36,145 nucleotides of DNA from a bacterium (GTDB lineage Bacteria > Cyanobacteriota > Vampirovibrionia > Gastranaerophilales > Gastranaerophilaceae), in assembly GCA_017505585.1 (NCBI GenBank), contig JAFVOZ010000003.1, positions 1 to 36,145 of the forward strand, given 5' to 3'. The translations under genes were made by a program, and so were the position numbers. Within the stretch, counting starts at the first letter, position 1, and each line of letters starts with the position of its first letter. Positions 485-19,535 of this stretch are shown in pieces. The notes below the pieces were generated by a model. That model searched no databases. It was given only the letters and a program-made list of their open reading frames with translations, and had not been told where the DNA came from.

Positions 485-721
485 CTATTTCCAAAGATAG
501 CTTATCGGGGCGGTTTTATCTTTAAAAAGTCGAGCCGTGCCCCAAAGAATTGCCATCCCGATTCCGATTGTTGCAAGCATTCTTGGAAGATAATTTACAT
601 TTTTTTCTTTCCCGCTTGTGCTTTCAGGATGAATTGTTGATTTTTCTGCACCCAAAAAATCAAGCCTTACATGCTTCTTTGCTTTGTTTAAATTCAAATT
701 TCTAACAGCACTTACTCTCAT
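485..721 (-). CDS. small tagged membrane protein (F-x-G N-terminal motif)
   Basis: This codes for 78 residues. The start is the ATG at 719-721, preceded by AGGTG about seven bases upstream; an upstream in-frame start at 769 would add 16 residues and break the pattern seen in neighbours. The N-terminus starts M-R-V-S-A-V-R and reaches D-F-L-G at residues 21-24, matching the motif found on five other proteins in the first 10 kb. A single hydrophobic segment lies at about residues 48-68 (from Y-L-P-R-M-L to T-A-R-L-F), so the product is probably a one-pass membrane protein with a short basic tail. I do not recognise a family. It is convergent with the YgjP-like gene and its promoter would lie in 722-900. 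Confidence 0.6.
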   Translation of the reverse strand: MRVSAVRNLNLNKAKKHVRLDFLGAEKSTIHPESTSGKEKNVNYLPRMLATIGIGMAILWGTARLFKDKTAPISYLWK

Positions 722-795
722 AAACAACACCTGTGTACTAATTCTAACAAATCTTACGCATTTCAACAAGTGTTATTTTGAAAAAATTTACAGTT

Positions 796-822
796 TTCAC
801 GATTTATTTAAAATGTCGTGAA
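796..822. repeat. 7-bp inverted repeat, operator-like
   Basis: TTCACGA at 796-802 is repeated in inverse orientation as TCGTGAA at 816-822 with 13 bases between. It sits in the intergenic stretch between the small tagged gene (start 721, minus) and the tRNA-Ser promoter. No T-run follows, so it looks more like a protein-binding site than a terminator. Function is inferred only from symmetry and position. Confidence 0.3.
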
Positions 823-879
823 TTATTGCTCAATTTAGTACATTTTTTTGTTAATCTTTGCTTAAAATTAAATAAAAAG

Positions 880-908
880 TTGACATGCCCTGCAATTTTT
901 AATATCCT
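880..908 (+). promoter_or_regulatory. sigma-70-type promoter of tRNA-Ser
   Basis: A perfect TTGACA (880-885) is followed after exactly 17 bases by TATCCT (903-908), a four-of-six match to the -10 consensus. Transcription would start near 915, about 30 bases ahead of the mature tRNA at 944. Confidence 0.7.
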
Positions 909-916
909 TAATATGT

Positions 917-929
917 AGGCAATTTGCCT
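917..929 (+). promoter_or_regulatory. palindrome at the predicted tRNA-Ser transcription start
   Basis: AGGCAA and TTGCCT are perfect inverse copies separated by one base. The site lies immediately around the predicted transcription start of the tRNA-Ser gene and 15 bases ahead of the mature 5' end. It could be an operator or simply part of the processed leader hairpin; the sequence does not decide. Confidence 0.3.
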
Positions 930-943
930 GATATATTTGACAC

Positions 944-1032
944 GGAGAAATGGCCGAGTGGCTGAAGGCGGCACCCTGCTAAGGTGTTAGGTGGAGTAAT
1001 CTGCCTCGAGGGTTCGAATCCCTCTTTCTCCG
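944..1032 (+). tRNA. tRNA-Ser (anticodon GCU)
   Basis: This is an 89-base class II tRNA. The acceptor stem pairs GGAGAAA (944-950) with TTTCTCC (1025-1031), and G1032 is the discriminator, as usual for serine. The anticodon loop CTGCTAA carries GCT, reading AGC/AGU codons. A long variable arm follows the anticodon stem, and the T arm pairs GAGGG with CCCTC around TTCGAAT. The 3' CCA is not encoded. A promoter lies upstream and a strong hairpin terminator directly downstream, so the gene is a single-tRNA transcription unit. Confidence 0.95.
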
Positions 1033-1038
1033 AATTTT

Positions 1039-1065
1039 AAAACCACCCGACAAGGGTGGTTTTTA
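1039..1065 (+). terminator. rho-independent terminator after tRNA-Ser
   Basis: AACCACCC and GGGTGGTT pair around a five-base GACAA loop and run into a T stretch. The hairpin begins less than ten bases after the tRNA. Confidence 0.9.
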
Positions 1066-1096
1066 TGTTTATAGTAATTATATTTATAAATTTAAA

Positions 1097-1602
1097 CTAA
1101 ATCGAAAAACTTTCAGCAGTTTGGATATCGATTGCCATATTTGCAGGAAGACTTGCTTGCCCACCCTTAACAAAACCAGCTAAAGCCAGAGGAAACAAGA
1201 AAAATATGCTAATTGTTCCTAGAACAATAGGCCAAGTTTTTTCTTCACCTGTTATTTTTTATGATACTCAATTCTTACCATTTCGCCTTTTGTGTTTCTT
1301 GCGTTCCCGCCCATAAGAAGCATATGTCCTGGTCTTCCCCAAAAACGAGCTTTTTGAACATCAGCCACGGATAATGTTGCACTATCACCCTTTTTAAATA
1401 TTTGTTTTCCAGAAACGTAAACGTCATCCGCAATTTTTGCATTTAATCTTTGTCCAACTTCCACATTTTTACTATCGTAAGAATCAGTTAAAGTAATTGT
1501 TAAATTAGTTCCTCTTTGCACATCAAGCGCTAATACTGGGCTTAAACCAGAATACGCAAACACAAAAGAAAACATAATAAAAAAAGTAAAAATTTTTTTC
1601 AT
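1097..1602 (-). pseudogene. exported beta-rich protein with a frameshift at an A6 run
   Basis: The first frame, from ATG 1602 to the stop at 1252, encodes 116 residues: a signal peptide (about 1-26, ending V-L-A), then a domain with G-T-x-L-T-I-T-L, a V-G-Q-R-L-N-A segment and K-A-R-F-W-G-R-P-G, ending E-Y-H-K-K. At the six-A run (1255-1260 on the plus strand, as Ts) the protein-like reading moves to the -1 frame and continues as I-T-G-E-E-K-T-W, a hydrophobic stretch of about 20 residues and a short tail, stopping at 1097. One added A in the run would fuse both parts into one protein of about 168 residues. The upstream half resembles the exported protein at 34405-35088. It may be a true pseudogene, a sequencing slip, or a gene rescued by slippage on the A run. 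It is divergent from the XRE regulator and shares the twin-operator region. Confidence 0.65.
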
Positions 1603-1634
1603 AGCTCAACCTTTCTAAAATTCCAAACCATTTT

Positions 1635-1688
1635 TTGCACGCATGCAAAATTTATAGAAATAATAACATTAAAATTGCATGTATGCAA
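1635..1688. promoter_or_regulatory. twin palindromic operators TTGCA-N4-TGCAA
   Basis: Two 14-base palindromes, TTGCACGCATGCAA (1635-1648) and TTGCATGTATGCAA (1675-1688), share TTGCA-N4-TGCAA and start exactly 40 bases apart, close to four helical turns. They lie between the divergent exported-protein gene (start 1602) and the XRE regulator, and the second overlaps the likely regulator start codon at 1683. This is the classic layout for an autoregulated repressor controlling a divergent gene. Confidence 0.65.
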
Positions 1689-1907
1689 GAAAACAATTTG
1701 GCACTAATAAAACTCGGTGAGCATATAAAAAAATTACGCAAAGCAAAGAAATTAACTCTTGAAGCGCTTTGTTATAAAAATGGATTAGAACCCTCAACAG
1801 TAAGCAGAATAGAAAAAGGGCAAGTTGAGGCAAAATATTTGACACTCAAAAAACTTGCAGAAGCACATAATAAAACTGTAAGCGAGCTTTTAGATTTCAA
1901 AGAATAA
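1683..1907 (+). CDS. XRE/Cro-family helix-turn-helix regulator
   Basis: From the ATG at 1683 this gives a 74-residue protein that is little more than one HTH domain: L-G-E-H-I-K-K-L-R-K-A-K-K-L-T, then E-P-S-T-V-S-R-I-E-K-G-Q as the recognition region, and T-L-K-K-L-A-E-A-H as the closing helix. This is the standard Cro/C1 pattern. An in-frame TTG at 1635 would add 16 residues, but they are encoded by the operator itself, so I prefer 1683; no clear ribosome-binding site precedes either. The two TTGCA-N4-TGCAA palindromes directly upstream, one over the start codon, suggest it represses itself and the divergent exported-protein gene. Confidence 0.85.
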   Translation: MQENNLALIKLGEHIKKLRKAKKLTLEALCYKNGLEPSTVSRIEKGQVEAKYLTLKKLAEAHNKTVSELLDFKE

Positions 1908-1965
1908 AAGCACTCCTTTAGGTATTTTTATTCTAAGAAAATAATCTTCATCGCAACGCAAGAAT

Positions 1966-2220
1966 TTAGCACTTCTTCCTATGGTAATAATAGGCGTCGA
2001 TGTTCATTAAAAGCTCGTCTTTATATTTGCCGTCAGAGTAGCCTTCATGCTTTTGCGAAATGGTTTCTTCTTTAGGCCCGAAAAAATCACAACCCTTGTC
2101 ATAAAAAGGTTTAACTACGACTTTATCATCTTCGGTTAGATATTTTGTTCTTTTGGTGCTTCCAAAACTGAGCGAACAAGGTTTTATTCTGGGAAAAATT
2201 GGTGTAATTTTCATATTCAT
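1966..2220 (-). CDS. small tagged protein of unknown function (S-F-G motif)
   Basis: This codes for 84 residues from the ATG at 2218-2220 (or 82 from 2214). It opens M-N-M-K-I-T-P-I-F and reaches S-F-G at residues 18-20, so it carries the same N-terminal motif as the larger neighbours, with the I-T-P core intact. The rest is hydrophilic and rich in Lys, Asp and Tyr, with a double cysteine-free body and a final Cys. There is no signal peptide and no membrane segment. A longer reading from 2271 adds a hydrophobic leader that I think is accidental. No Shine-Dalgarno is visible. I do not recognise the family. Confidence 0.55.
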   Translation of the reverse strand: MNMKITPIFPRIKPCSLSFGSTKRTKYLTEDDKVVVKPFYDKGCDFFGPKEETISQKHEGYSDGKYKDELLMNIDAYYYHRKKC

Positions 2221-2378
2221 ACAAAAAAACAATATTTTATGCGAAATTATAGATAAGTAAAAAATTATCACATCTACAACAAAAGCTGTTTTTTAAGTTT
2301 AAGTACAACGAGTCTTCCGCCAATCAACTTTCAATTACATTTGCTATGAAATTACCAGCTTTTCTACAATGCTATAAA

Positions 2379-3596
2379 TTATTTCAAATAAGACTGCTTA
2401 AATGTGGATTTTTTGGGCATAAAATCATTAATTGAGCGAACGTCAATTTCATCGTTATTATTGATTGTTACAACCAAAGATTCATTATCTTTATCTATCG
2501 CTTTTATTCTGCCAAGTGTTCTTATGCTAACTATACCATCATCCACAACGGCGTTCTCGCATTTAGTTTCATTATCGCCATAATAAGCAATAATTTCAGG
2601 TGTCACAAATTTATTAAAATCCTCGATTGATTTTGCAATCGCGAATTCAACAGGCTCAACAAACCAACGTTTTGACCAATCAACCTTTGAAGCAGTGTAA
2701 AATTTGCCGTTTACCGAAATTCCCGCACCAATTTTTTGATTTGAAAAAGAGGTGAATTCATCTTTTGTGTAAGCATTTTTTGCCTCTTTTAACGTATTTA
2801 AAATATTTTCGTTTGTTATACCTTTTTCATCCATAATTCTTTTTGCATCATCCGTGAAAACAAAAGGCATTTCATCGAGTTCAATATCTGCTTTTGAGTC
2901 AATTAAATCAATCCCTCTCATTGGCAAAATATCTTTTAAGGTTTTGAACTCTAAAAAGAGTTTGTTTGTTTCTTTATCTTTTGTAAAGAATGCAATTTTT
3001 GTTTCATCATCAAGAAAACGAGCGGTGTTCAGCCAACTGAGGCAATCTGCGCAAGGCAGCGAAGCATTTGAATCTTCACCTATATTCTTTGCGCTAGACA
3101 TAGCTAAATATTTAATTTTAAAATCATCTTGCGTGGTTTCTGTGTCGTTATCTTTGATTAGTTTTTTCAAAAAATCATTATATGCAACAACAATTGCAGA
3201 CCTTTCTCCACATATTGAAGAGATATCATTTCTTGTGTTATTGAAATTTGTTGCTAAATGCCAAGTGTTATCAGAAAGACATAAATTACTTGCAAAACCA
3301 AGCTGCACAATGTTGCCTGTTTCAACATTTTTCTTTGCAAGCTCATGCGCCTCAAGCAATTTTTCAACAAAAAGAGCTTTTTGCTTGTCGCTTATAGCAA
3401 TTGGGTTTGTAGATTTTACCTCAATATCTTGAATATTCAAACCATATTTTTTAGTTAAAGGAAATTCACAAGGTACGCTTTTCTTCTCAAAAGAGTCCTC
3501 TGTTTTGCCACTTCCGCGAAAAATCGGAGAATTCTTTAGAGAATATTTAAAATTATTTCTATTAGGTTGAAAAATTTTTATCGGACTTATGTTCAT
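2379..3596 (-). CDS. tagged protein with tandem cytidine-deaminase-fold domains
   Basis: This codes for 405 residues. The N-terminus M-N-I-S-P-I-K-I-F leads to I-F-R-G at residues 25-28, the recurring tag. Residues about 70-225 look like a zinc-dependent cytidine deaminase: S-S-I-C-G-E-R-S-A (Cys129, catalytic Glu131) and L-P-C-A-D-C (Cys182, Cys185) provide the expected C-x-E and P-C-x-x-C motifs. Residues about 262-345 look like a second, degenerate copy: K-I-G-A-G-I-S-V-N-G-K-F-Y then E-P-V-E-F-A-I-A-K-S with no zinc ligands, as in two-domain deaminases such as E. coli Cdd. A beta-rich tail follows. Whether the substrate is free cytidine, nucleic acid or something else is unknown. No signal peptide and no clear ribosome-binding site. 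Confidence 0.7.
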   Translation of the reverse strand: MNISPIKIFQPNRNNFKYSLKNSPIFRGSGKTEDSFEKKSVPCEFPLTKKYGLNIQDIEVKSTNPIAISDKQKALFVEKLLEAHELAKKNVETGNIVQLGFASNLCLSDNTWHLATNFNNTRNDISSICGERSAIVVAYNDFLKKLIKDNDTETTQDDFKIKYLAMSSAKNIGEDSNASLPCADCLSWLNTARFLDDETKIAFFTKDKETNKLFLEFKTLKDILPMRGIDLIDSKADIELDEMPFVFTDDAKRIMDEKGITNENILNTLKEAKNAYTKDEFTSFSNQKIGAGISVNGKFYTASKVDWSKRWFVEPVEFAIAKSIEDFNKFVTPEIIAYYGDNETKCENAVVDDGIVSIRTLGRIKAIDKDNESLVVTINNNDEIDVRSINDFMPKKSTFKQSYLK

Positions 3597-3636
3597 ATAT
3601 GATATGAAACATGAACAAAAATATTATTGCTAATTT

Positions 3637-4671
3637 TTAATCTTTTTGAAATTCTGACAAGCTCTTAACCCTTAACGCTAAAAAAGGATTTTCTTTTTCT
3701 TTATCTATAAGAAACATTACAAAAGTTTTATCAAAATTAAACTCTCTTGGCGGTTCGTTTTCGCTTGGAGATATCATATTGCATTTTGACATCAACAAAG
3801 CTTCCGATTTTACTTTCCCGCCTTTGTTATCAAGCTCAAGCTGAAGAGTTTCAATCGCTTCAGAAAAATACAAATTCGCAGTTCCTTCAATTGTTCTGTC
3901 TGTTAAAGTTGGATATTTTCTTATTTCATTAATTTTTAAATTCGGAACTTTAATTGTGTCCTTTACATTAAATTCTCTTTCGCCTTCATATTTTTCTGTT
4001 TTAACTAACATTTTTTCGTAAATCTTATCAAACGGAGCACTTGAATTTGTTCTGTATAAATAAATAATATCCCCGCTTACAGTCAAAAGTTGAACAGCGT
4101 AATCATTTTTATTGTTGTGGAACAAAACTTGAACATTGTTGTCCAATGTTTCTTTTGATTCATTTGTTATACCGAAATATTTGAATTCACCTTTATTATT
4201 AAAAGTGCCTTTTTCTAGTTCTTCAAACTCTTCAAGAAATTCAAATTCTTTTTTAAGCATAGCATATGCGTAGTATTTTCCCTCGCCTTCAGACCAATCA
4301 GCCATATCTAAAACATCTGATTTTTCTTCAAATTTCTTATAGACATCTTTTTTGATTTTTTCTTTTGCAAAAGGAGATGTTTTGCCATAGCTTGTATAAT
4401 AACTTGATTTATTCAACATAGAAGAATTAAATTCCTCTGAATTTAAACCAATTAGTTCGCTCGTTGGTTTTTCACCTCTGAAAATAATATCGTGCCCAAT
4501 AATATTATTTTTCATATCATTCCAAACAAGCTGAAAAGTGCCTACCCAAGCTTTATTTGTTGAATGAGATTTTGTTGAAAAGAGTGTTAAAACATCTGTC
4601 TTATCTTGTTCCCAAAAAGCGCAGCCGCTGAGCAAAAACGAACAAAGTATTGCAGATATTATTTTTTTCAT
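3637..4671 (-). CDS. lipoprotein, possibly serpin-like
   Basis: This codes for 344 residues and starts with AAGGGG spaced before the ATG. A lipoprotein signal peptide ends L-L-S-G-C (Cys17), so it is exported and lipidated. The C-terminal 75 residues resemble the end of a serpin: an A-I-E-T-L-Q-L-E-L-D-N-K-G-G segment where serpins have the conserved hinge, a short loop, then F-N-F-D-K-T-F-V-M-F-L-I-D and a final beta strand N-P-F-L-A-L-R-V, like the serpin tail. The N-terminal two thirds (F-Q-L-V-W-N-D-M near residue 50, Y-G-K-T-S-P near 95) is only loosely consistent. If correct this would be a surface or periplasmic protease inhibitor; otherwise it is an unassigned lipoprotein. Divergent from the GspF-like gene. 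Confidence 0.6.
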   Translation of the reverse strand: MKKIISAILCSFLLSGCAFWEQDKTDVLTLFSTKSHSTNKAWVGTFQLVWNDMKNNIIGHDIIFRGEKPTSELIGLNSEEFNSSMLNKSSYYTSYGKTSPFAKEKIKKDVYKKFEEKSDVLDMADWSEGEGKYYAYAMLKKEFEFLEEFEELEKGTFNNKGEFKYFGITNESKETLDNNVQVLFHNNKNDYAVQLLTVSGDIIYLYRTNSSAPFDKIYEKMLVKTEKYEGEREFNVKDTIKVPNLKINEIRKYPTLTDRTIEGTANLYFSEAIETLQLELDNKGGKVKSEALLMSKCNMISPSENEPPREFNFDKTFVMFLIDKEKENPFLALRVKSLSEFQKD

Positions 4672-4746
4672 ATTAAACCCCTTTTTTAAACTTATTTTAA
4701 CAGAAATTTCATCTCAAGAAAACTTACGACATTTTACCTATCTTTA

Positions 4747-4782
4747 TAGCAAAAAATGAAACAATAATATATAATAACTTTA
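4747..4782 (+). promoter_or_regulatory. candidate promoter giving a leaderless gspF-like mRNA
   Basis: A perfect TATAAT (4770-4775) ends six bases before the ATG at 4782, which puts the expected transcription start on or beside the start codon. A weak TAGCAA lies 17 bases upstream (4747-4752). There is no Shine-Dalgarno. In such AT-rich DNA a chance TATAAT is possible. Confidence 0.4.
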
Positions 4783-5969
4783 TGGCTAATTTCTTTTACA
4801 AAGTTAAGAATTCAAAAAATGAAATCATCGAAGGTGCTTTTCATGCTGAAAGTTTATCCGCAGCAGCTGCTATTCTTGAACAAAAAGGCTATGTTGTCCT
4901 TGAAGTCAAAGAAGAAAGCGGAAATATTCCTGTTGATTTTTTAAGTCTTGATTTTTCAGGCAAAATGACACTAACAATCCAAGAGAAAAAAGATTTCTTT
5001 AATTCATTTTATTCTCTTTATAAATCAGGGCATTCAATACTTGAAATTTTTAACTTGATGCACGGCTCAACAAAATCCGCAAAAATAAAAGTGCTATGCG
5101 GAAAAATCTTGCAAGGCGTGAGCCAAGGGCAATCTTTAAAAGAATCCATGAAAAATTGCTCCGAAGCACTTGGCAAAGCATATTCAATGCTTATTGTCGC
5201 GGGTGAAGAATCAGGAAAATTAGAAGAAGTTTTATCTGATATCAATAAAAATGTACTGATGCAAGAGAAAATCAAAAACGATATAATCTCAAAAATAACT
5301 TATCCTATAGTAATGATATTCCTTGCGATATTTGTTGCTCTTTTATTTAAAACGTTTATTATTCAAGTTTTTAATGCAAGCATAATGGGTGCAAAGGTTT
5401 GCTTGGTGACTCTTGCAATCAAATCCATACTGCAAATAGGCGCGGTTTATGCAGTAATTGGTATTGCGATTTTCCTAATGTATAAAAATAAAAGTCTTAT
5501 GGCAAAAATTATATCTAAATTTACTGCGTTTGCCCCAATTGGCAATTTAGTAAAAAGCTATACATACGCAAACTTCTTTTCAGTGTTGTCGCTTGCATAT
5601 TCAGCAGGAATTTCACTTGCGGAAGCCCTATATCTATCAAGCACCGTTGTTAACCTGCCTGAAAACACAGACAGATTGAGACAAGCAACATTTAGGGTCC
5701 AACAAGGTTGCGAATTAACAACTGCGCTTAGTGCAACATCACTATTTTCAGAATATGCAATTTCCCAAATTGCAGCAGGTGAAAAAGCAGGCGAGCTCGA
5801 TAAAATGCTTCAAGCAGTAGCCCATGATTATGAAACAAAATTAAGAGTTGCGTTAGATGTAGCATTAAAGCTTTTAGAACCAGCTATGATTATTTTTGTC
5901 GGAATTATTGTATTATTTGTTGTGCTGAGCGGTTATAAAGCATATTATTCTTATTTATTCTCTTTTTAG
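4782..5969 (+). CDS. GspF/PilC-family inner-membrane platform protein
   Basis: This codes for 395 residues, the usual length for this family. It has the typical N-terminal extension (F-Y-K-V-K-N-S, then A-A-A-I-L-E-Q-K-G-Y-V-V) and two repeated GspF domains. The first covers about 70-190 (F-F-N-S-F-Y-S-L-Y-K-S-G, then V-A-G-E-E-S-G-K-L). The second covers about 260-385 (F-F-S-V-L-S-L-A-Y-S-A-G, then I-A-A-G-E-K-A-G-E-L). Three hydrophobic segments sit near 172-195, 210-230 and 365-388. These proteins link the cytoplasmic assembly ATPase to the pseudopilus of type II secretion or the type IV pilus. No other pilus genes adjoin it; the only related gene here is the degenerate ATPase at 23781. 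The start is the only sensible ATG. Confidence 0.92.
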   Translation: MANFFYKVKNSKNEIIEGAFHAESLSAAAAILEQKGYVVLEVKEESGNIPVDFLSLDFSGKMTLTIQEKKDFFNSFYSLYKSGHSILEIFNLMHGSTKSAKIKVLCGKILQGVSQGQSLKESMKNCSEALGKAYSMLIVAGEESGKLEEVLSDINKNVLMQEKIKNDIISKITYPIVMIFLAIFVALLFKTFIIQVFNASIMGAKVCLVTLAIKSILQIGAVYAVIGIAIFLMYKNKSLMAKIISKFTAFAPIGNLVKSYTYANFFSVLSLAYSAGISLAEALYLSSTVVNLPENTDRLRQATFRVQQGCELTTALSATSLFSEYAISQIAAGEKAGELDKMLQAVAHDYETKLRVALDVALKLLEPAMIIFVGIIVLFVVLSGYKAYYSYLFSF

Positions 5970-5979
5970 GCTAAGTCTA

Positions 5980-7368
5980 TCACAATAAACATTTTTCAAT
6001 ATCATCTTCAATTGCATAGATTTCGTCTTGTTTGAAACCGATAGCGTCTTTAAAATAAATTCTGTTGTTAAACTCCGGAGTCCCGCCAAGAAGCCCGTAA
6101 ACCCTAAGTAGAATTTTAAATTCATCGGGCGTTATTGAACATTCATTTAAATCTTCGTTTATATATGTTGTTTTTATAGAATACAAAGCATCGTCCGTTT
6201 TTTCGCTTTTACAAACACCAATCACCCCTTGCCTCATCATAGAGCCAACTTCTGCAATATATTCGGTTGCATTTGTTGCAGCGTAAACCGAAACTTTATC
6301 CTCAATTAATTCTTTTAGTTTCTCGTCTTTGATGACTATATTTTCGCCATCTTTTTCAATTTTATCCGCAAGAATTTGACCATCGCAGTCGCGCAAAATT
6401 TTATTACCGCAAATAAGTGCTAACCCAGAATTAGACTGCCCCAAGGACTTCCCTGTTAAATAATCTTTTTGGTGCTGGATTTCATGATAAAGTCTTCTTG
6501 TGAGAAAATCCTTATTTTTTGTCGGTCTAACAACAACTGCATCACCTTGGCAATATACGCCCTCTGTGTTATCTTCCAAAAAATTAGTAACTAAAATTGA
6601 CTGCGGTATTTCATTGAATGGAGTTTCTTCGAGGATATCAATACAATCCAAAATAATTTGAGGCTCAACATTGTGGTCAACATATATTTTTTTGCCTTCA
6701 AATTTTGCTTCGTATTCTTCCACTGCGGCGCGCAAATTTCTTGGCATTTTACCATACACTACATTGTTAATTGAGTCGAAATGGTCCAAAATGTGCCCAT
6801 CTCTAAATTTTCTTGAATTAATGTCGCCAATTAAAATACCTGTATTTAAATCAAAATCACTCGAGAGCAAAAATGCCTTTTCAAAATCCGGTGATTTTGT
6901 ATTTAACTTGATTTTTTTGCCATTCAAGACATAAGTCGCACCAGAAAGTTTTTCCTTATCAAAATCAAGTTTCAAAGATTTTGTATCATCTTTTGAATTT
7001 TTTATAAACACATGTTTTAGATTTTTATCCTCGTCAAGCACCATTTCGGTTTCTTTATTGAGAGTATAAATATCAAATTTCGTAAAAAGCGAATCTCTTT
7101 CAGCACGCGTTACTTTGTGCTCCTTGCAAATTTCATCAAATTCGCGGTTATATCTGTGAAAAATTGTGTTTTTTGCACTTAGCCCACCCGAGGTTTTAAG
7201 AAATTTATCTCCTGCATAGTTTTTAAGCTTGTTTGCGCCAGATATAAAAGGGTTGGTTTTGCGCGTTGGCTTTTTCTCTGTGCCTGTAAAATAAACTGGT
7301 GCAACTGAATAACCAGATAACACAGAAAGCAATTTAGTAGAATAAAATTTTGCAGGAGTAATTTTCAC
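5980..7368 (-). CDS. tagged HExxH zinc metallopeptidase-like protein
   Basis: This codes for 462 residues from a GTG at 7366-7368. It begins M-K-I-T-P-A-K-F and reaches V-Y-F-T-G at residues 25-29, the recurring tag. The catalytic region is R-L-Y-H-E-I-Q-H-Q-K-D-Y at about 292-303, with HEIQH at 295-299 and a likely third ligand in N-A-T-E-Y-I-A-E about 70 residues later (Glu369 or Glu373), as in gluzincin-type proteases. A basic, low-complexity linker follows the tag and residues 70-260 form an unassigned N-terminal domain. There is no signal peptide or membrane segment. The ends of this gene and of the GspF-like gene are only ten bases apart and convergent. Substrate unknown. Confidence 0.7.
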   Translation of the reverse strand: MKITPAKFYSTKLLSVLSGYSVAPVYFTGTEKKPTRKTNPFISGANKLKNYAGDKFLKTSGGLSAKNTIFHRYNREFDEICKEHKVTRAERDSLFTKFDIYTLNKETEMVLDEDKNLKHVFIKNSKDDTKSLKLDFDKEKLSGATYVLNGKKIKLNTKSPDFEKAFLLSSDFDLNTGILIGDINSRKFRDGHILDHFDSINNVVYGKMPRNLRAAVEEYEAKFEGKKIYVDHNVEPQIILDCIDILEETPFNEIPQSILVTNFLEDNTEGVYCQGDAVVVRPTKNKDFLTRRLYHEIQHQKDYLTGKSLGQSNSGLALICGNKILRDCDGQILADKIEKDGENIVIKDEKLKELIEDKVSVYAATNATEYIAEVGSMMRQGVIGVCKSEKTDDALYSIKTTYINEDLNECSITPDEFKILLRVYGLLGGTPEFNNRIYFKDAIGFKQDEIYAIEDDIEKCLL

Positions 7369-7488
7369 AACATTATAAAACTTCTAAAAAATAAATTTTC
7401 ACAAAAAAATCCTATTCTTGTTTTATTCTCTAGTTGAATAAATGGCTGTATAATCACAATGAGAGCCACAAAACAAAAGAAAGCTTGC

Positions 7489-8211
7489 ATGATAATTTTC
7501 AATCTTGATGAAAAAAAGTTATTTAAAAGCATTGAACTACTTCCAGATGCTATCAAGATTAATTCTAACTATCGCTCGCATAATCTTAGCTATTCTTATT
7601 CAGAAATTGAAAGTTTTAGACTAGATATAGAAACTGTTTGGTTTCAAGGGCGCTACAGGGGCTACTATGTTTGCAAGAAATTTATACTGCATTTTAAAAC
7701 AAAAGAAGGCAGAATTTTCACAGTTGAAAAACATCCGCTCATCAGGGTTATAAAACCGATTTATGATATTATAGACGCCACAAGAAAAATAGAGAATTTT
7801 GAGTTCCAAATTGTTGGAGGTGGCGAACCTTATGACCTGAGTGAAAAAATAGAAAAATATAGAAAACTTGGATACAAAGACTCTCTTGGGGAAAAGGCGA
7901 AAAAAGAAGTACATATAACGAGCTCAATTATTATTGCACTTCCGTGTCTGCTATTTATAACATCTCACATATTAAAACTTTTCGTTTTAGAATCTGATTT
8001 CTCTTATGTGCTAACACGAGAAGGCGCACAAGCTACGAGCTTCTTTTTGCCTATAGCATTAGCTGTTGAAGCCTGCGTTTTATACGACACAATACAAGAT
8101 AATGTTATTCAAAAAACAGTTTACGAAAACAGGGTTACAATTCGGAGTGCAATGCTTGAGTTTTTAATTAAAATTATTGTAAGCATTATCACTTACGTAG
8201 TTGTGTTTTAA
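7489..8211 (+). CDS. membrane protein of unknown function
   Basis: This codes for 240 residues from the ATG at 7489 (M-I-I-F-N-L-D-E). An ATG at 7459 would add ten basic residues, but a TATAAT at 7449-7454 would place the transcription start at or after it, so I prefer 7489. The first 150 residues look soluble and beta-rich, with a segment around Y-S-E-I-E-S-F-R-L and R-I-F-T-V-E-K-H that recalls small PH-like membrane-associated domains. Three hydrophobic segments follow at about 143-163, 180-200 and 222-240. No family recognised. Its stop codon overlaps the stop of the convergent deiminase-like gene by three bases. Confidence 0.65.
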   Translation: MIIFNLDEKKLFKSIELLPDAIKINSNYRSHNLSYSYSEIESFRLDIETVWFQGRYRGYYVCKKFILHFKTKEGRIFTVEKHPLIRVIKPIYDIIDATRKIENFEFQIVGGGEPYDLSEKIEKYRKLGYKDSLGEKAKKEVHITSSIIIALPCLLFITSHILKLFVLESDFSYVLTREGAQATSFFLPIALAVEACVLYDTIQDNVIQKTVYENRVTIRSAMLEFLIKIIVSIITYVVVF

Positions 8212-9404
8212 TCTCCCATCTCTTCTGCACACAGACAGTGGATACCGCCGTTTCCATTTCCTAAATAATACATTATACTGTTACTTTTTTTCTCGTATTT
8301 GCCACCATCAACATAATGGATTCTTTTAATTTTAGGATATTTTTCAAATAAATCTTTTTCGAAATTCTCTTGCATTGCCGCGTATATTTTTGCGCCATGT
8401 TTTGTTGAATTTGTTATATAAACCAAATCTTCACCATTTTTGTGCACTATCGCATTTATGAAATTGACAGGGTTTCTGCCAAATGCGCCCGCAATTTTAA
8501 TTGGCACAAAACCGTTTGCTTCAAGCTTTGCGCAAATATCATCAGATAAACAATAATCCTTGCGATGATTTTGAAGAATCCCTTTAAATCTTTTCAGTTC
8601 ATTTCTTTCTTGAATATTGAATTTAAACTGTTCATCCAATTTTTCAACAAGTTTGTCGACCTCTGTATCATCGTTTACCAAAACATAAGGGTATTCCAAA
8701 GGGCGAATTACCATATCAACATGAAAGTCAGCCTCCGGCAAAAAAATCATATTTTCTCTTTTGACATCAAAATCTTCAGATGCTATTTTTATTGCTTTCT
8801 TTGTCCAATATTTCCAATTGTCGTCATACTCTTGCTCATCAGCAATTAATTCACCTTGCTCGTTAAAGTATTTACCTTTTTTGAAAAACTCTTCCAGCGC
8901 ACTATACTCCGCTTTGGTTTCAAATTTATCTTGAAAATACAGATATTTCCCGCAAAGATACATATTTGCGGCAGAGGTTATAAAATAGTTTTCGCCATTA
9001 TCTTTTTTACCAAGAAAAACATTTCCGCCCTCAAACATTAACTCCGAAAAATATCCGTCCATTTTTGTCTGTTCGCAAAAATCAGCAACTTCTGCAAGTT
9101 CAGGTTTGTTATAAAATTCAGGAGCAACTGCAACAGTTCTGCCTTCTTTTTTAATTAACAATTTATTGTCTTGCGCCCAAATACCCCAAGGATTTTGTTT
9201 TTTATTTACTTCAGTCAGCTTTTCACTTTTGATGTCTTGATTATCATGAATAAAAACGTCAAATCCTTCGCTTTCGCCAATTGTTTTCATTTGGTTATAA
9301 ATATGGACTTGAGTCGGATAATTTGAATTTTGCATATAAAGGGCTTTGATTTTACCTGCATCGTGTCCTTTAAAATTAAAATTTTTGATTGGGGATGTTT
9401 TCAT
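8208..9404 (-). CDS. tagged agmatine/peptidylarginine-deiminase-fold enzyme
   Basis: This codes for 398 residues from the ATG at 9404; an upstream TTG at 9440 would add 12 residues and bury the tag M-K-T-S-P-I-K-N-F-N-F-K-G (residues 1-13). The motifs of the guanidino-group-modifying (agmatine deiminase/PPAD) superfamily appear in order: W-A-Q-D (76-79, where the family usually has W-x-R-D), F-E-G-G-N-V (124-129), F-H-V-D (227-230, catalytic His and Asp), N-F-I-N-A-I-V (314-320) and G-N-G-G-I-H-C (384-390, nucleophile Cys390). An insertion of about 50 residues lies near 160-210. The expected chemistry is hydrolysis of a guanidino group (arginine to citrulline, or agmatine-like). No signal peptide; free agmatine and protein arginine both remain possible. 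Confidence 0.8.
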   Translation of the reverse strand: MKTSPIKNFNFKGHDAGKIKALYMQNSNYPTQVHIYNQMKTIGESEGFDVFIHDNQDIKSEKLTEVNKKQNPWGIWAQDNKLLIKKEGRTVAVAPEFYNKPELAEVADFCEQTKMDGYFSELMFEGGNVFLGKKDNGENYFITSAANMYLCGKYLYFQDKFETKAEYSALEEFFKKGKYFNEQGELIADEQEYDDNWKYWTKKAIKIASEDFDVKRENMIFLPEADFHVDMVIRPLEYPYVLVNDDTEVDKLVEKLDEQFKFNIQERNELKRFKGILQNHRKDYCLSDDICAKLEANGFVPIKIAGAFGRNPVNFINAIVHKNGEDLVYITNSTKHGAKIYAAMQENFEKDLFEKYPKIKRIHYVDGGKYEKKSNSIMYYLGNGNGGIHCLCAEEMGD

Positions 9405-9533
9405 ATTTTCTAAAAACTTCTCAAAGTTTTTTTTGAACAATTCAAGACTAATATTTATTAAGAAAATTCAATAAAGCATGCAACTTTTATTCTTCAGTTG
9501 TTTTGTAGCTTTGTAAAGATTTTGGAGAAAGAA

Positions 9534-10085
9534 ATGGAAATTAGATTTAACACAAATATCTATGCAAAACCAAGTTTTGGTATGGCGCAACTTACCGAAA
9601 TAGGTGAAAATGCAGTGAAAGATTACCAAGGTGAACTCAAGGAGTCAAAGCAAGGCGGTCCATATAGCACAAAGAATATGACACTTGAAATTTTAAAGGA
9701 AGCAACAGACCCGAAAGATAAAAGTGCCGACGAAATTCTTGATAATTTTTTCAAATATGGTTCAGGTCCTTTTGATGGTGATAATGCCACTTTTGTTGAA
9801 ATGCAGATTTTGCCCACAACAAGTTACCATTCGCTCAAAAAATTCTTAAAAGGCCAACACGAAGACGCTGTTAAATTGAAAGAAGGAGCTGACTACAAAG
9901 CACAAACACCATTAGGTGAAAAAGTTATTGAAAATCTTGTCAAAATATTCGACCAAAATATCAACAATATGCATCTTTCCAGAAAACAATGTAAGGACAT
10001 TTTAAGCCTTGCGGAACCTTATATGGAGCCTTCTGCTGTTGCACCAAGAGCTTTGGTTGTTTCTGGTAAACTTTACTCAAAATAA
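9534..10085 (+). CDS. tagged hypothetical protein (S-F-G motif)
   Basis: This codes for 183 residues. The ATG at 9534 follows TTTGGAGAAAGAA, a good ribosome-binding site; a TTG at 9498 is in frame but unsupported. The protein starts M-E-I-R-F-N-T-N-I-Y and reaches P-S-F-G at residues 13-16, a looser form of the tag found upstream. The body is hydrophilic and mostly helical in character (D-E-I-L-D-N-F-F, L-G-E-K-V-I-E-N-L-V-K-I-F) with no membrane segment and one Cys. I do not recognise a family. It is divergent from the deiminase-like gene. Confidence 0.65.
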   Translation: MEIRFNTNIYAKPSFGMAQLTEIGENAVKDYQGELKESKQGGPYSTKNMTLEILKEATDPKDKSADEILDNFFKYGSGPFDGDNATFVEMQILPTTSYHSLKKFLKGQHEDAVKLKEGADYKAQTPLGEKVIENLVKIFDQNINNMHLSRKQCKDILSLAEPYMEPSAVAPRALVVSGKLYSK

Positions 10086-10173: not shown

Positions 10174-10458
10174 ATGAAAAAAGTATTAACAGTAGCACTT
10201 TTAGGGGCGATACTTTCAATGACTGCACCATGTTTTGCGGGAACTCACGGGAAAGCCGGAGAGGTTTCAAACAGAAGTATTGGAGCTTCTCTTTGCTCAC
10301 TCATCATTTGGCCGGGAATCGGTCAATTTGTTAACGGCGAAAGCACAGAAAAAAATGTGACACATGCTGTTCTTGGGCTTACAGGTGTCTTCAGATTTTG
10401 GTCTTTCTATGATGCACTTGTGGATAGAAAAGGCGGAGTTTGGCACAACAGAATTTAG
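10174..10458 (+). CDS. small exported protein, unknown
   Basis: This codes for 94 residues starting 8 bases after GGAG. A clear signal peptide (M-K-K-V-L-T-V-A-L-L to C-F-A-G, about 1-23) is followed by two short hydrophobic stretches, L-C-S-L-I-I-W-P-G-I-G-Q-F and T-H-A-V-L-G-L-T-G-V-F. The P-G-I-G-Q-F-x-N-G segment recalls the P-G-x-G-Q-x-Y pattern of small DUF5683/TM2-like membrane proteins, but this is weak. It ends in a shared hairpin terminator with the convergent gene at 10505. Confidence 0.65.
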   Translation: MKKVLTVALLGAILSMTAPCFAGTHGKAGEVSNRSIGASLCSLIIWPGIGQFVNGESTEKNVTHAVLGLTGVFRFWSFYDALVDRKGGVWHNRI

Positions 10459-10489
10459 CACTAATTACAAAACCTAAATTTTAATTCAA

Positions 10490-10520
10490 AAATAGCTATG
10501 TTGTTTAAACATAGCTATTT
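10490..10520. terminator. bidirectional hairpin terminator
   Basis: AAATAGCTATG (10490-10500) and CATAGCTATTT (10510-10520) form an 11-pair stem around nine bases. It lies just after the plus-strand gene ending at 10458, and the stop codon of the minus-strand gene (10505-10507) is inside the loop, so it can serve both. Confidence 0.65.
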
Positions 10521-11086
10521 ATATAATTTAGATTTATTTGTTTGTAAGCATTTGCCGCTGATTTTTGAAAAAAGGATTGAGTACTTTCTTTGGTTTCCCC
10601 AAAGGGATCTTCCTTGTTTAAATTAATTGTTTGAGCAACATTCGAAAGTGCCTCATCAGCGTTTTGTGCAAAATATTCTGATGTGTATCCCGAAAGAATT
10701 TCCTCGTATGCGTTTGAATTTATTTCATTAATATTTTCTTGTGTATAATATTCGTCTTCATCTGCATTAGAATTACTTACTTGTGTCGGATTTGGGAAAA
10801 AATCAGCACCGCCCAAATTTACGGTAATTTTTGCAGGAGTTTCCGCCATACCGCCTATATCAAGCCCTGTTGGCATGCCAAGTTCATTGCTCACAGCCCT
10901 GTATAACCAACGAGAATCGCTTTCTGTCGAACTCTTGAGAGGTTGGACGGTATCTGAAACACTATAATAAGAACTTGCAATAGAGGAAAGTTCCCTCAAA
11001 TCTTCTTGAGGAGAAGTTATCTTCTGGGTGTTATAAACGCCGGAAGTTGGTTGATAATGGGAAAAACCGCTAATTGCTGATATCAC
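10505..11086 (-). CDS. hypothetical Ser/Asn/Glu-rich protein
   Basis: This codes for 193 residues from a GTG at 11084-11086, preceded by AAGG at a usable distance. There is no signal peptide, cysteine or membrane segment. The N-terminus M-I-S-A-I-S-G-F-S-H-Y-Q is reminiscent of the neighbouring tagged proteins but has no F-x-G. The body is acidic and rich in Ser, Asn, Gln and Tyr, with a helical C-terminal third (A-D-E-A-L-S-N-V-A-Q-T-I, then F-F-Q-K-S-A-A-N-A-Y). Such composition is seen in secreted or surface-structure proteins, but no family is recognised. Confidence 0.55.
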   Translation of the reverse strand: MISAISGFSHYQPTSGVYNTQKITSPQEDLRELSSIASSYYSVSDTVQPLKSSTESDSRWLYRAVSNELGMPTGLDIGGMAETPAKITVNLGGADFFPNPTQVSNSNADEDEYYTQENINEINSNAYEEILSGYTSEYFAQNADEALSNVAQTINLNKEDPFGETKESTQSFFQKSAANAYKQINLNYINSYV

Positions 11087-11166
11087 GTACTCGACCTTAT
11101 ATTATTCCATTCCTACATTATAAGTTTCGCATTTTATACTCGTTTTATCATCATACATGTAGTTGA

Positions 11167-12468
11167 TTAAGAGTTTTTGATAATATCTGCAAGTTCTTTA
11201 AAACTATAAAAATCTTTTATAACAAAAATTTCAACTCCGCACTCGCTCTTTATATCAGAAATATCAAGCCCATCAATAAATTGCTCCGTGCCTTCTTTTA
11301 GCATAACAGAAGGAAGCACGATGTTTTTCGGTGGGTTTTTCATATTTTTTAATGTATAGATAATATCTCCTGCCGTGATTAAACCTGTTACTGTTATTCT
11401 TTCACCAAAAAACCTGTTTTTAATCTCAAGTACGGAAAGTTCAAGATTTTCAATTTTTAAATCACACGCAATATCATCAAAAATAAATTTTGAAATTGAA
11501 CCTGTAATAATCCCAAGTTCAAGTGGTTTTTTTAACTTTTTAGGCAAAGTTTTTTTTCTTTTTGCAAAATCATCAAGATAAAGTCTTATTGCCCCAACTC
11601 CGTCTTCTATTTGCAAAAACTTGCCATAATATTTTTTTGGCGGAATTTCTTTTTCAGCAAGCAAGAAAATTTCATCTGATGCCATTGCAATATTTTTTTT
11701 CATATCAGAATTAAATTTGTCCAACTGCTCAATAATATCAATTGCACCTGCCTTATCTAGCTTTTCAAGCTGATTTGCATGATGCATCGATATTCCAACA
11801 GGAACAACCGCGAGAGATTTTAAATGTTTTTTATATTTTTTAAGGTCAGATAATGTCCTTGTAAGTTCTTCTTTGTCGTTAATTCCTGGACACAGAACAA
11901 TTTGCGCGTGAAAATCTATCCCGATTTTTGAAAGCCTGTCTAAATTTTCAAGAATTTTACCTGCATTCTTATTTTTCATCATAGAGATTCTAAGCTCTGG
12001 GTTTGTTGTGTGAACCGAAATAAAAAGCGGCGAAAATTTAAATGTTTCAAGCCTTTGCCAATCTTGTTCGCGAAAATTTGTGGTCGTTACATAAGTCCCT
12101 TGAAGATAAGAAAGACGCCAGTCATCATCTTTTACGTACAAACTATCTCTTAAATTATCAGGTTGCCCGTCAACAAAGCAAAAAATACACTTATTGGCGC
12201 AAGGTATAACTCTGTCAAAAACGGCACTTTCAAACGAAAGTCCAAGGTCTTCTCCATAATCTTTTTCGAGCTCAATAACTTCCTCTTCACCATTTTTCTT
12301 TTTAACAAGAATTTCAAGTTCCTCGTCTTGAACTAAAAAGCTATATTCAATAAGGTCGGATGGCACACTTGAATTTATCTCAAGAATTTCATCACCTGCT
12401 TGAAGCTCAAGTTCGTCTGCAATTGAATTTGGAACAACAGAGGATATAACAGCGCCCAATCTTTTCAT
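11167..12468 (-). CDS. DUF512 radical-SAM-like protein with N-terminal PDZ domain
   Basis: This codes for 433 residues, full length for the family (COG1625). Residues 1-60 form a small PDZ-like domain (G-A-V-I-S-S-V-V-P-N-S-I-A, then A-G-D-E-I-L-E-I-N). The radical-SAM cluster motif C-x3-C-x2-C is C90-A-N-K-C94-I-F-C97-F. The middle has F-S-P-L-F-I-S-V-H-T-T-N-P-E-L-R and A-Q-I-V-L-C-P-G-I-N-D, typical of this group, and the DUF512 part fills the C-terminal half (R-L-Y-L-D-D-F, L-P-S-V-M-L-K-E-G). The reaction is not established as far as I know; a [4Fe-4S]/SAM cofactor is expected. Its start codon overlaps the PadR-like gene's stop by four bases (ATGA), so the two are translated together. 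Confidence 0.9.
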   Translation of the reverse strand: MKRLGAVISSVVPNSIADELELQAGDEILEINSSVPSDLIEYSFLVQDEELEILVKKKNGEEEVIELEKDYGEDLGLSFESAVFDRVIPCANKCIFCFVDGQPDNLRDSLYVKDDDWRLSYLQGTYVTTTNFREQDWQRLETFKFSPLFISVHTTNPELRISMMKNKNAGKILENLDRLSKIGIDFHAQIVLCPGINDKEELTRTLSDLKKYKKHLKSLAVVPVGISMHHANQLEKLDKAGAIDIIEQLDKFNSDMKKNIAMASDEIFLLAEKEIPPKKYYGKFLQIEDGVGAIRLYLDDFAKRKKTLPKKLKKPLELGIITGSISKFIFDDIACDLKIENLELSVLEIKNRFFGERITVTGLITAGDIIYTLKNMKNPPKNIVLPSVMLKEGTEQFIDGLDISDIKSECGVEIFVIKDFYSFKELADIIKNS

Positions 12469-16214: not shown

Positions 16215-19200
16215 TTATTCAACCACTCTTATAAGTTCTTCAACTTCTTCGCCGTCTTCATCGAATGTGATTGCTGCCGCTGCTGCCACCATTCCAACTG
16301 TTGGGTCTGTAATTGAGTTTGTAATTGGTTCAGGAAGCCCGTGGATTTCGGTTGGTCTTGGGATTTTAATTACATCGATGTCATTTGAAGTCACATCAGG
16401 TGATACACCAGGGTTTGGATTTGGGTCTGGAAGAATCGGAGCCGGTGGTACATCATCAAATCCGTTGATTTTTGTGTAAACTAATAAGAATTTTTCATTT
16501 CCAGTTTGACCTGCCAAGTCGATGAAGTGTTTTGCGTGAGCATCAGCACCTTCGTATGTTGTTGGCAAATAGCTTGCTGTATAGAAACCTACATAGTTGC
16601 CATTTTCATCGATTGAGTATGGAGTTTTATCTAAGTTGAAACCGTCAAAGTCTTTAACTTCGATATATGCTCTACCTTCAGCATTTCCGCCAGGTTGAGT
16701 TTCAGGGTTAGTGTTTTGAGCAGGTTGGTCAAGTCCCGCGATATCATCAGCTGTAAGAGTTGTTGCTGCAGCGATGAATTTATCATTTGCATCAAGATTT
16801 AATTTGTTTGATACGATTCTTGAGATTGAAAGAACATCATCTTTAGCGTCAAGTGTAACAACTTTACCACCAATGTTTACGCCTGCATTGCGGTTAGCAA
16901 CATTTGATAATTGAAGGTTAACATTATTGTTGAAGTTTTTAGTTGCAAGGATTTCTGCATCAGTTTTGCCTTCACCAACACCAGCGTATGCCAAGAATGC
17001 ACCGTTGTTAGTGTTGATATCGCCTTTAATATCGCCTGCTTCAGTGATGATTGTATTTGCTTTTGAGTTCATTGAACCATTGTTCATTGTAACTGCTTTT
17101 GCGCCGTATACTCTAACAACGCCGTTTTTAGCTGTTAAGTTTGCGTTATTTAAAGTTAGGTCTTTTGTTGCATTAACCTTGATGTTTGCTTTTTCAGAGT
17201 TTAGTGCAAGTGAATTTGTGTGTTTAATTGCTTCAATTGGTTCTTGAGCAAATTCGATGTTACTTGCATCGCCTCTTGTTGTGATTGCAACATTTTGAGC
17301 GTTCATTTCAGCAGTTGAATCCATTGAAATACCTGTGCGGTCTGCTGCATTTTTAGCGATGAATGCATTTTTAATATTTACTGCAATGTTGTTTGCTGCA
17401 TTTAATTTAGAATCAAAGAAGTGGAAACCTTCGTTTTGAGAAGTGATATTGATGTCTGATTTTGAAGTTACATTTGAATTATTAATTACATCAACATCTT
17501 TTGTAGCAACTAAAGTAAGTTTGTCTTGATTATCAGCTTCAGCTGCCCAAGTGCCTGTTCCTGCTTCTGTAACAACCGCTTTTTTCATTGTTGCTTTATC
17601 AAGAGTTAATTTACCTCTTACATCAATTGTTACGCCTTCGCCTGCTGCTGCGTTTCTTTTTTCAAATGTAGAGTCATCTTTAACTGTTACATTGTTTTCA
17701 GCAGTTGTGTCTGCGTCATATAAAGCTAAGTTGTTGTAGCTTAAGTTTGTATTTTGGATTAATGTATCTTCAGCAAGTAAGCTGATATCTTTTCCTGCAT
17801 ACATAATTGAACGATTACCGTTAACGCCGTTTGCATCTCTGTATACATTAAGTTTTTTAGCTGCTTTAACTTTAATATTACCCATTGCAGCATCAACTAA
17901 AGTGTTGCCAATATTAACATTATTGCCTGATTCAATTGTGATATCTTTTGCAATGTTTGCTTGTGGGTTAGAAGCAATCATATTAGAGTTAGTAACATTT
18001 GAATTAAGGGCAGATTTAACTCTGATATTACCTCTTGAGAAAAGGTTTGAAGTGTTAATATCGGTATTGCCATATACTGAGTTAATTTGGATGTCACCAG
18101 GTTTTTGAGTTCTGCCGATTGCAGCTGTGTCTTGTGTTGAAAATGCTGTTTGAAGAGTTGATTTTTCAATCAATACATTTCCGCCACCGATAATGTTAAT
18201 TTCGCCACCTTTTTGGTCGTTAGTGTTAACATTTGGATTTAATTCTTCGTGAGTGTTATATGTTTTTAATAAAGAATTTTTGATTTTTACATGGTTGTTA
18301 CCTGTGATATCAATGTCACCTGTTGCATTATTTAATAATTTATTACCAACAAGAGATGAGTTTTGAACTAAAATATTTGAACCTTCGGTGCCAGCCGGAA
18401 TTTCCATTGTTTTGTCATAAGTTACACCGCGGTTTTTAAGCAAAATGTTGCCTGATTCAATGTAAGTGCCATCTGCTACATCAGTGCTGCCAATCGTGAT
18501 ATTGTAGTCAACACCGTCTAAACCTTTAGCAACTGAAAAATCTTCATTGTAAACATAACCATTTAATTTATAGCTAGCTTCAGCACCACCACCTGTTGCA
18601 AGTTTTACGTTGCTGAATGATTGGTTGTAGTCAAGCGGTTTGTTTGCTAAATCTGAAGAGAAGTTGTAGTCAATATTTGTAATGATTTCAGAACCGTTTA
18701 CAACTTCAATATCCTTAGCGGCAATGATTGCTGTTTTATCGATATTAAATTTAGCATTATCCAATTTAATTAGCGCGCCGATTTTGTCATCAGTGCTTGA
18801 GAATTTAATATTAATATCTGGGCCAAAGTAATTTTTAAGATTATTTGTATATGTATTTAATTGAGAAGATGTTAAATCACCAAGATTTTTAAGTTTTTCA
18901 GGCTTAAATGTTGTTGCGGTAAATGCATTTAAATTAACATTTGCACCTTCGCCAAATAAAATACCATTTGGGTTGATTAAAAATATCTTACCTGTACCTG
19001 CATAATCTTTAGCAGCATTTGAAGATGTTTGTTTCAAAGTACCATATATTTGAGATGGGTTTTTATCTAAGACATTGTGGATAAAAGTTTGAGACCAGTT
19101 TGTAAAAATATGGTTTACTTCTTTATCTGAACCCAAGTTGAACGAATTCCAATCACCTTGAACAACGCCATTTTTACCTGAAGTTGCTTTAATGTCTAAC

Positions 19201-19337: not shown

Positions 19338-19469
19338 TGTTTTCCCCTTCTTTATTTCTTCTAATATAATTTGCGTGAGATTAATTCTACACTAAAAAAA
19401 CAGGTGAAGGCATTTTTTTGCCAAAAAAGAACAAAAATAGTTACAAAGTTTAACATTTTGTTACGGGGC

Positions 19470-19498
19470 TTGCTTATTTAGCATGTGTATTCTATTAT
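19470..19498 (+). promoter_or_regulatory. promoter of the TpsB gene
   Basis: TTGCTT (19470-19475), 17 bases, TATTAT (19493-19498). The predicted start near 19505 leaves a leader of about 30 bases that includes AGGGAGAAGGA. This decides the TTG at 19536 over any start near 19485. The 200-base divergent region also holds the TpsA promoter. Confidence 0.6.
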
Positions 19499-19535
19499 TT
19501 ATATTAAGAAAAACTATTCCAGAAGGGAGAAGGAA

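Follow-up and report, generated by a model that had tools for sequence, protein, structure and literature searches.

Contig JAFVOZ010000003.1 (C41) of assembly GCA_017505585.1 is analysed here over its 36,145 nucleotides, referred to as the window. It derives from a genome of 1.22 Mb in 99 contigs (73% complete) of the Gastranaerophilales, non-photosynthetic cyanobacterial relatives of animal guts, and sampled stretches of this genome were included in the analysis. The first 10 kb of the window hold a cluster of genes whose products are otherwise unrelated but share a short N-terminal peptide, hereafter the tag, with the consensus M-[N/K]-I-[S/T]-P-[I/V/L]-[N/S], a short N/S/T/Q-rich linker and then [S/T/N]-F-x(0-1)-G. 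The genes are listed with tag scores from an independently trained profile and, where relevant, scores for a promoter-like element described below.

485..721, minus strand: small protein (MRVSAVRNLNLNKAKKHVRLDFLGAEKS...; MRVSAV...DFLGAE) with a hydrophobic segment; weakest tag, loose pattern only; no Pfam match; no promoter element seen
1966..2214, minus strand: 82-residue protein (MKITPIFPRIKPCSLSFGSTKR...) of no known family; strong tag (27.2); no promoter element (score -7.9)
2379..3596, minus strand: 405-residue protein (MNISPIKIF...SPIFRGSG...) with cytidine-deaminase-like CGE and PCADC motifs; tag 24.3, promoter element 23.7
5980..7368, minus strand: 462-residue protein with a GTG start (MKITPAKFY...VYFTGTEKK...), metallopeptidase-like through its HEIQH (HEXXH) motif, in the sequence HEIQHQKD; tag 18.8
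8208..9404, minus strand: 398-residue protein (MKTSPIKNFNFKGHDAGKI...) with a predicted guanidino-deiminase fold; strong tag (19.0)
9534..10085, plus strand: 183-residue protein (MEIRFNTNIYAKPSFGMAQLTE...) with a partial tag that consists of the second half (PSFG, residues 13-16); preceded by the promoter element; no family match in Pfam or NCBIfam

A mechanical motif search at candidate starts recovered five of these genes (721-, 2214-, 3596-, 7368- and 9404-), and five tagged genes among about 13 in 10 kb, against an order-wide rate of at most about 3%, make the window an unusual cluster (P ~2.6e-5). The first-pass annotation had described a shared start on six proteins; all six starts were found where it had placed them and four of the tags are strong, while 485..721 fits a loose pattern only and 9534..10085 (MEIRFNTNIYAKPSFGMA) lacks the first half. 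The latter probably belongs to the tagged class because the shared promoter element, with a score of 19.4, lies upstream of it. Searches of the six proteins against Pfam and NCBIfam gave no useful match, with a weak NCBIfam match of 2379..3596 to cytidine deaminase, and a PDB sequence search of three of them, 5980..7368 included, gave none. A further gene (10505..11086, minus strand, GTG start), beginning VISAISGFSHYQPTSGVYNTQ, is N/S/T/Q-rich like the rest of the proposed regulon and is a possible further member; it has no promoter element and no clear F-x-G.

The tag itself stands up to statistical scrutiny. Blind alignment of 62 tagged proteins left MNIxPIxxxxxxxFxG as their sole common part. 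Across 29 relatives, matches to a DNA pattern for M-[N/K]-I-[S/T]-P-I exceeded those to a reversed control, and on inspection the matches proved to be real gene starts, preceded by good Shine-Dalgarno sites and followed by an F-x-G that the query had not included. A pattern covering both halves, applied to 289 genomes of the class, gave 64 matches in the order versus 13 for the reversed-pattern control (our own count from the table) and about 11 versus 5 in the other families. A tag profile was trained on pattern-matched loci and tested, at a threshold score of 10, on held-out stretches picked regardless of tag. It recovered 11/389 genes in genome G028, 1/105 in the window's genome, 1/152 in G001 and 2/183 in G007 (about 0.7-2.8%), against 1/6,924 in a null of internal methionines. 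Outside the order, the same threshold returned 3/70 genes in family f15 and none in the sampled stretches of families f8 (0/112), f9 (0/99), f14 (0/38) and f12 (0/63). The N-terminal enrichment that the first-pass annotation had proposed to look for is present, and its mention of similar starts in gut Melainabacteria was correct.

A stricter DNA pattern returned 19 matches from 84,980 species genomes, 13 of them credible starts and 6 short or out of frame. Nine of the credible starts are labelled Gastranaerophilales; the remainder carry only the label 'uncultured bacterium' and are members of the same families of genes or similar to them. With a pattern this strict the tag is confined to the order, and less exact forms are also seen in f15 and perhaps in f9. 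The codons for the tag's P, I, F and G follow ordinary genome usage, so selection acts on the peptide and not on the DNA. It was also a concern that the tag depends on the start codons chosen; this was met by the Shine-Dalgarno sites of relatives, by an ortholog of 2379..3596 in another genus (L010, 60.9% identical) whose tag MNITPI...FQGK starts at the same place, and by retention of F-x-G in 26 members of the 8208..9404 family. Taken together, these results show that many unrelated proteins of effector-like kind begin with a peptide tag that is specific to the order and selected at the protein level. It should be noted that one locus of f15 (L154, genome G080, 4346-6360 and 10346-11215) has three tag-like starts within 7 kb, MKISPIVHSPQRAPRFAG, MKIAAVST...LRFDG and MNIAAVST...IRFGE, with no promoter element upstream.

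Printing the DNA upstream of tagged genes revealed a second shared feature, the element TAGCAAWWWWWWN10GTTTTATAT, also laid out as TAGCAA-N16-GTTTTATAT. The exact element occurs 106 times in the order, once in the neighbouring family f15 and never in the reversed control (289 genomes). A promoter profile was built from tagged loci outside the test set, with GCAA and, 20 bases on, GTTTTAT as landmarks; scores above 9 were obtained for 12/35 tagged versus 36/1,649 untagged held-out genes (odds ratio 23, P=3.5e-11), and many of the top-scoring 'untagged' genes actually carry variant tags such as MIRAVNNSSLSFKS or MAVNLSDTNISFGS. When proteins were selected by this element, with the tag not used, the N/S/T/Q/P share of their starts was 0.457 versus 0.241 (P=1.8e-14), and the stretch often ended in SF[G/K] or F-x-G. 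Tag and element therefore lead from two sides to one overlapping class, with the two sets coinciding only in part: the element is absent from many tagged genes and many element-bearing genes have only part of the tag. The element is order-specific and associated with the tag, and its role as a promoter is putative. Occurrences in the window include:

3600..3633, minus strand: promoter-like element TTAGCAATAATATTTTTGTTCATGTTTCATATCA; score 23.7, the best in the window; ends just before the ATG at 3596
7371..7404, minus strand: variant promoter-like element TTGTGAAAATTTATTTTTTAGAAGTTTTATAATG; score 11.0
9407..9440, minus strand: variant promoter-like element TTGTTCAAAAAAAACTTTGAGAAGTTTTTAGAAA; low score (3.6), layout as in the variant before the tagged gene L059:15257
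9477..9510, plus strand: promoter-like element CATGCAACTTTTATTCTTCAGTTGTTTTGTAGCT; score 19.4

The element abuts the start codon of the gene at 3596, and variant elements precede those at 7368 and 9404. The messages of these genes may be leaderless, which would explain their missing Shine-Dalgarno sites. By eye, the element matches neither the flagellar sigma-28 nor the sigma-54 consensus, and it was rejected as a site for either. Elsewhere in the window (16215-21308), a large haemagglutinin-like repeat protein is encoded beside an outer-membrane transporter-like gene, an arrangement with the look of two-partner secretion by eye; a weak match to the element (11.9) lies upstream of the large gene.

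What follows the tag differs from protein to protein, as the first-pass annotation had claimed of the window, and includes kinase, ankyrin, phosphatase, deaminase, guanidino deiminase, HEXXH peptidase and GNAT domains. Pfam identified, in one member each, ankyrin repeats, a protein kinase, a polymorphic-toxin DSP-phosphatase (DSP-PTPase), a 5'-nucleotidase, a GH77-like domain and an RHS repeat. Inspection by eye added GNAT-like proteins (three of them consecutive in L042), HEXXH peptidases (window 5980-7368, L059 and L040), a LysM-like protein (L118) and possible cysteine proteases (L070:18719 and L030:8205). The absence of a classical signal peptide also held throughout: a Sec-like hydrophobic core at residues 3-38 was found in 0/62 tagged and 0/25 promoter-selected proteins, compared to 23% of the background.

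The deiminase encoded at 8208..9404, with family matches in 66 genomes, shows how the tag relates to the domain behind it. Its 26 aligned members begin with M-[KN]-I or a near variant, continue with a linker free in length and sequence, and then reach F-x-G, of which F11 and G13 are invariant alongside the catalytic columns. The other invariant columns (QD, GGN, HxD and GGxHC) include the conserved D, H-x-D and Cys of guanidino-group-modifying enzymes. An AlphaFold2 model of the window protein (mean pLDDT 84) leaves residues 1-11 disordered and begins the fold at residue 13; its best Foldseek matches were agmatine deiminase, DDAH and PAD, and the Pfam family PAD_porph matched 11/26 family members at E<=1. 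On its modelled fold and conserved residues, the protein can be placed in the guanidino-group-modifying enzyme superfamily. Further relatives in the window's genome (L230, L231 and L232; G000:C58, C76 and C32), of which the C58 and C76 members have NFKGY near the start, form a lineage-specific family expansion with the window gene. The first-pass annotation had suggested sorting, export or processing by a dedicated machinery; sorting or export fits the order restriction, the selection on the peptide and the shared promoter, while processing is less likely because F-x-G leads directly into the first strand of the deiminase fold, with no obvious cleavage spacer.

A candidate exporter is present in all of the relatives. 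A second FlhA (FlhA2) and a second FliP (FliP2) occur in 29/29, the window's genome included. Flagellin occurs in 19/29, and ten genomes have the second set only; in G024 flagellin is present and flagellar-type FlhA and FliP have no match. A pattern search of the sampled loci returned no flagellin genes. FlhA2 is 74-92% identical across genera, and is thus conserved and not decaying, with about 38-41% identity to the flagellar FlhA (FlhA1) of the same genomes. In flagellin-free genomes (G007, G008, G014 and others) the set comprises FliE, FliF, a FliG-position protein, FliH and FlhA2 (L074), a FliM/N-like protein with FliO, FliP, FliQ and FliR (L119), FlgB, FlgC and two FlgG-like rod proteins (L178), and FliJ, FliK-like and hook-like proteins with FlhB2 (L184). 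FliP exceeds its flagellar cut-off in NCBIfam. FlhA2, FlhB2, FliR, FliQ and FliF do not reach the flagellar equivalog cut-offs (705.8 versus 772.1 bits for FlhA2 of G007) or, where injectisome models matched, the cut-offs of those. The export gate also scores under the injectisome cut-offs (SctV, 594.7 versus 692.25 bits; SctR, 194.6 versus 208.6). Fragmentary FlhA copies with internal stop codons at G006:C2:45319-45771 and G013:C21:34284-34919 are apparently decayed.

Flagellar gene subsets lacking filament, cap, and L and P rings have been reported for MEL.A1 and the koala genomes and were read as flagellum loss (Di Rienzi et al., PMC3787301; Soo et al., PMC4040986). The paralogy of FlhA2 and FlhA1 instead argues for the same genes being a separate, conserved apparatus. 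In the literature on type III secretion in this class, no paper was found describing the tag or such a system. The order also has a soluble FlhA_C paralogue of about 490 residues, in which a DUF4177-like start is fused to the FlhA cytoplasmic domain with no membrane helices:

L072:1431..2885 (G000:C91) and L070:13538..15019: soluble FlhA_C protein, with relatives in nearly all genomes of the order

Full-length matches to this protein were found only inside the order, and genome G003 has none. In known systems the FlhA cytoplasmic domain docks substrates, and by this analogy the soluble FlhA_C is a candidate reader of the tag.

The explanation favoured here, with a probability of about 0.5, is that the tag serves as an N-terminal export signal, uncleaved and disordered, and marks a lineage-specific, effector-like regulon in the Gastranaerophilales, for which the second flagellum-derived type III apparatus is the most likely exporter. 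An export signal as such is likely; the identity of the exporter is plausible. The tagged proteins would often be made under the shared order-specific promoter, and the export gate would recognise M-[NK]-I-[ST]-P-[IV] together with F-x-G, possibly aided by the soluble FlhA_C paralogue. The exporter would consist of FlhA2, FliP2, FliQ, FliR, FlhB2, FliE, FliF, FliH, a FliM/N-like ring protein, rod proteins and a hook-like protein, and the cargo would leave unfolded via the rod and a short hook and act on neighbours or the host. In its fullest form, the proposal of a flagellum-derived type III system, universal in the order, taken for a broken flagellum and exporting tag-addressed effectors, with soluble FlhA_C as candidate reader and a dedicated promoter, is put forward tentatively.

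The weakest step is the link from tag to apparatus. The case for type III draws on what sort of signal and cargo these are and on the apparatus being present; tag and apparatus do not strictly co-occur. In the flagellin-free genome G007, a 5'-nucleotidase-family gene with a tag-like start sits between those for the hook-like protein and FlhB2 (L184). In G007, G014 and G015 a small protein whose start reads MISSVSS-[IV]-[NS]-F-[KR]-G or MLQSVSGVNFRG is encoded close to the FliM-FliR operon. Several observations weigh against the assignment. The neighbourhood of the apparatus shows no excess of tagged genes (14/607 at its loci versus 2-3% elsewhere), the promoter element has no convincing match before the apparatus operons, and some tagged proteins have a transmembrane segment 30-60 residues in, after the tag. 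Families f9-f14 mostly keep FliP yet have few or no tags, and thus the apparatus does not predict the tag; f8 has neither FliP nor an excess of tags, and no genome of the order is clearly without the apparatus. Nor was an outer-membrane pore identified, though no search was aimed at secretin, needle or translocators. Genome G003 and family f15 have tags without soluble FlhA_C, which contradicts that protein as an obligate partner of the tag. Separately, flagellin-linked export was rejected as a general answer, as tags occur in genomes without flagellin or flagellar FlhA/FliP. The FlgB proteins of the apparatus have tag-like starts (MYTPLDS, MYNPIDS and MGYTPVN), which are suggestive but inconsistent and were not used as evidence.

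The same evidence from tag and promoter would also apply if the signal addressed another machinery, such as an unknown Sec-independent exporter, a type IV pilus/type II system or two-partner secretion, or a cell site such as the inner membrane face. This is somewhat unlikely, though a TpsA/TpsB-like pair and a PilC/GspF-like gene can be seen by eye in the window, the membrane segments of some tagged proteins would suit it, and the type III apparatus is distributed more widely than the tag. Known substrates of type IV pilus, type II and two-partner systems have a Sec signal or a prepilin leader, features absent from all 62 tagged proteins; disordered starts rich in N/S/T/Q/P are characteristic of type III substrates. 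An intracellular role, in which the tag serves for docking, binds a chaperone or belongs to a regulatory assembly and nothing is exported, is improbable; the invariant F-x-G beside the folded domain of the 26 deiminases could pack on that domain or bind a partner, but residues 1-11 are disordered in the AlphaFold2 model and the tagged domains resemble effectors more than members of a single pathway.

Joint occurrence of promoter and tag on unrelated genes might be expected from a mobile 5' cassette of promoter and gene start captured by new open reading frames, its peptide having no selected function. Such a cassette is highly improbable, since synonymous codon choice in the tag is as diverse as across the genome, the two tag ends are kept around a freely varying linker, and many genes have the tag without the element or the element with a partial tag. 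Chance is effectively refuted: AT-rich coding sequence does yield many MKI and MNI starts, but the internal-methionine null, the reversed-pattern controls and the lack of such genes in the f8 and f9 samples all contradict composition as the cause.

If export by the second type III apparatus is correct, the 'incomplete flagellum' reported since 2013 becomes a working secretion system, and the secretome of an uncultured gut lineage becomes readable from genomes through a sequence-defined type III signal. In this widespread gut order, which is essentially uncultured, the tag would point out many candidate enzymes that act on the host or on neighbours (kinases, phosphatases, deaminases, arginine-type deiminases, acetyltransferases and peptidases). 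Because such a type III signal has a true consensus, the long-standing question of gate-substrate recognition could also become directly testable with a short peptide.

Compared to known systems, the tag most resembles the N-terminal type III signals of injectisome effectors and flagellar substrates, as an uncleaved, disordered, N/S/T/P/I-rich and non-Sec start on unrelated effectors, with a type III gate in every genome checked. Known signals of this kind have little sequence consensus, whereas the tag is conserved at both ends across proteins and genera, and export here is inferred. The apparatus has all core parts of the flagellar export apparatus (FlhA/FlhB/FliPQR, rod and hook) by profile, but it coexists with a separate true flagellum in 19/29 relatives. 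It is unlike a functional flagellum in that ten relatives keep it without flagellin and FlhA2 falls under the flagellar cut-off, and unlike a non-flagellar injectisome of the SctV class in that its export gate falls under the SctV and SctR cut-offs. The MIX (type VI) and LXG (type VII) markers offer a parallel in placing a common N-terminal marker on diverse toxin-like domains; these are folded domains of 50-200 residues, whereas the tag is a short disordered peptide.

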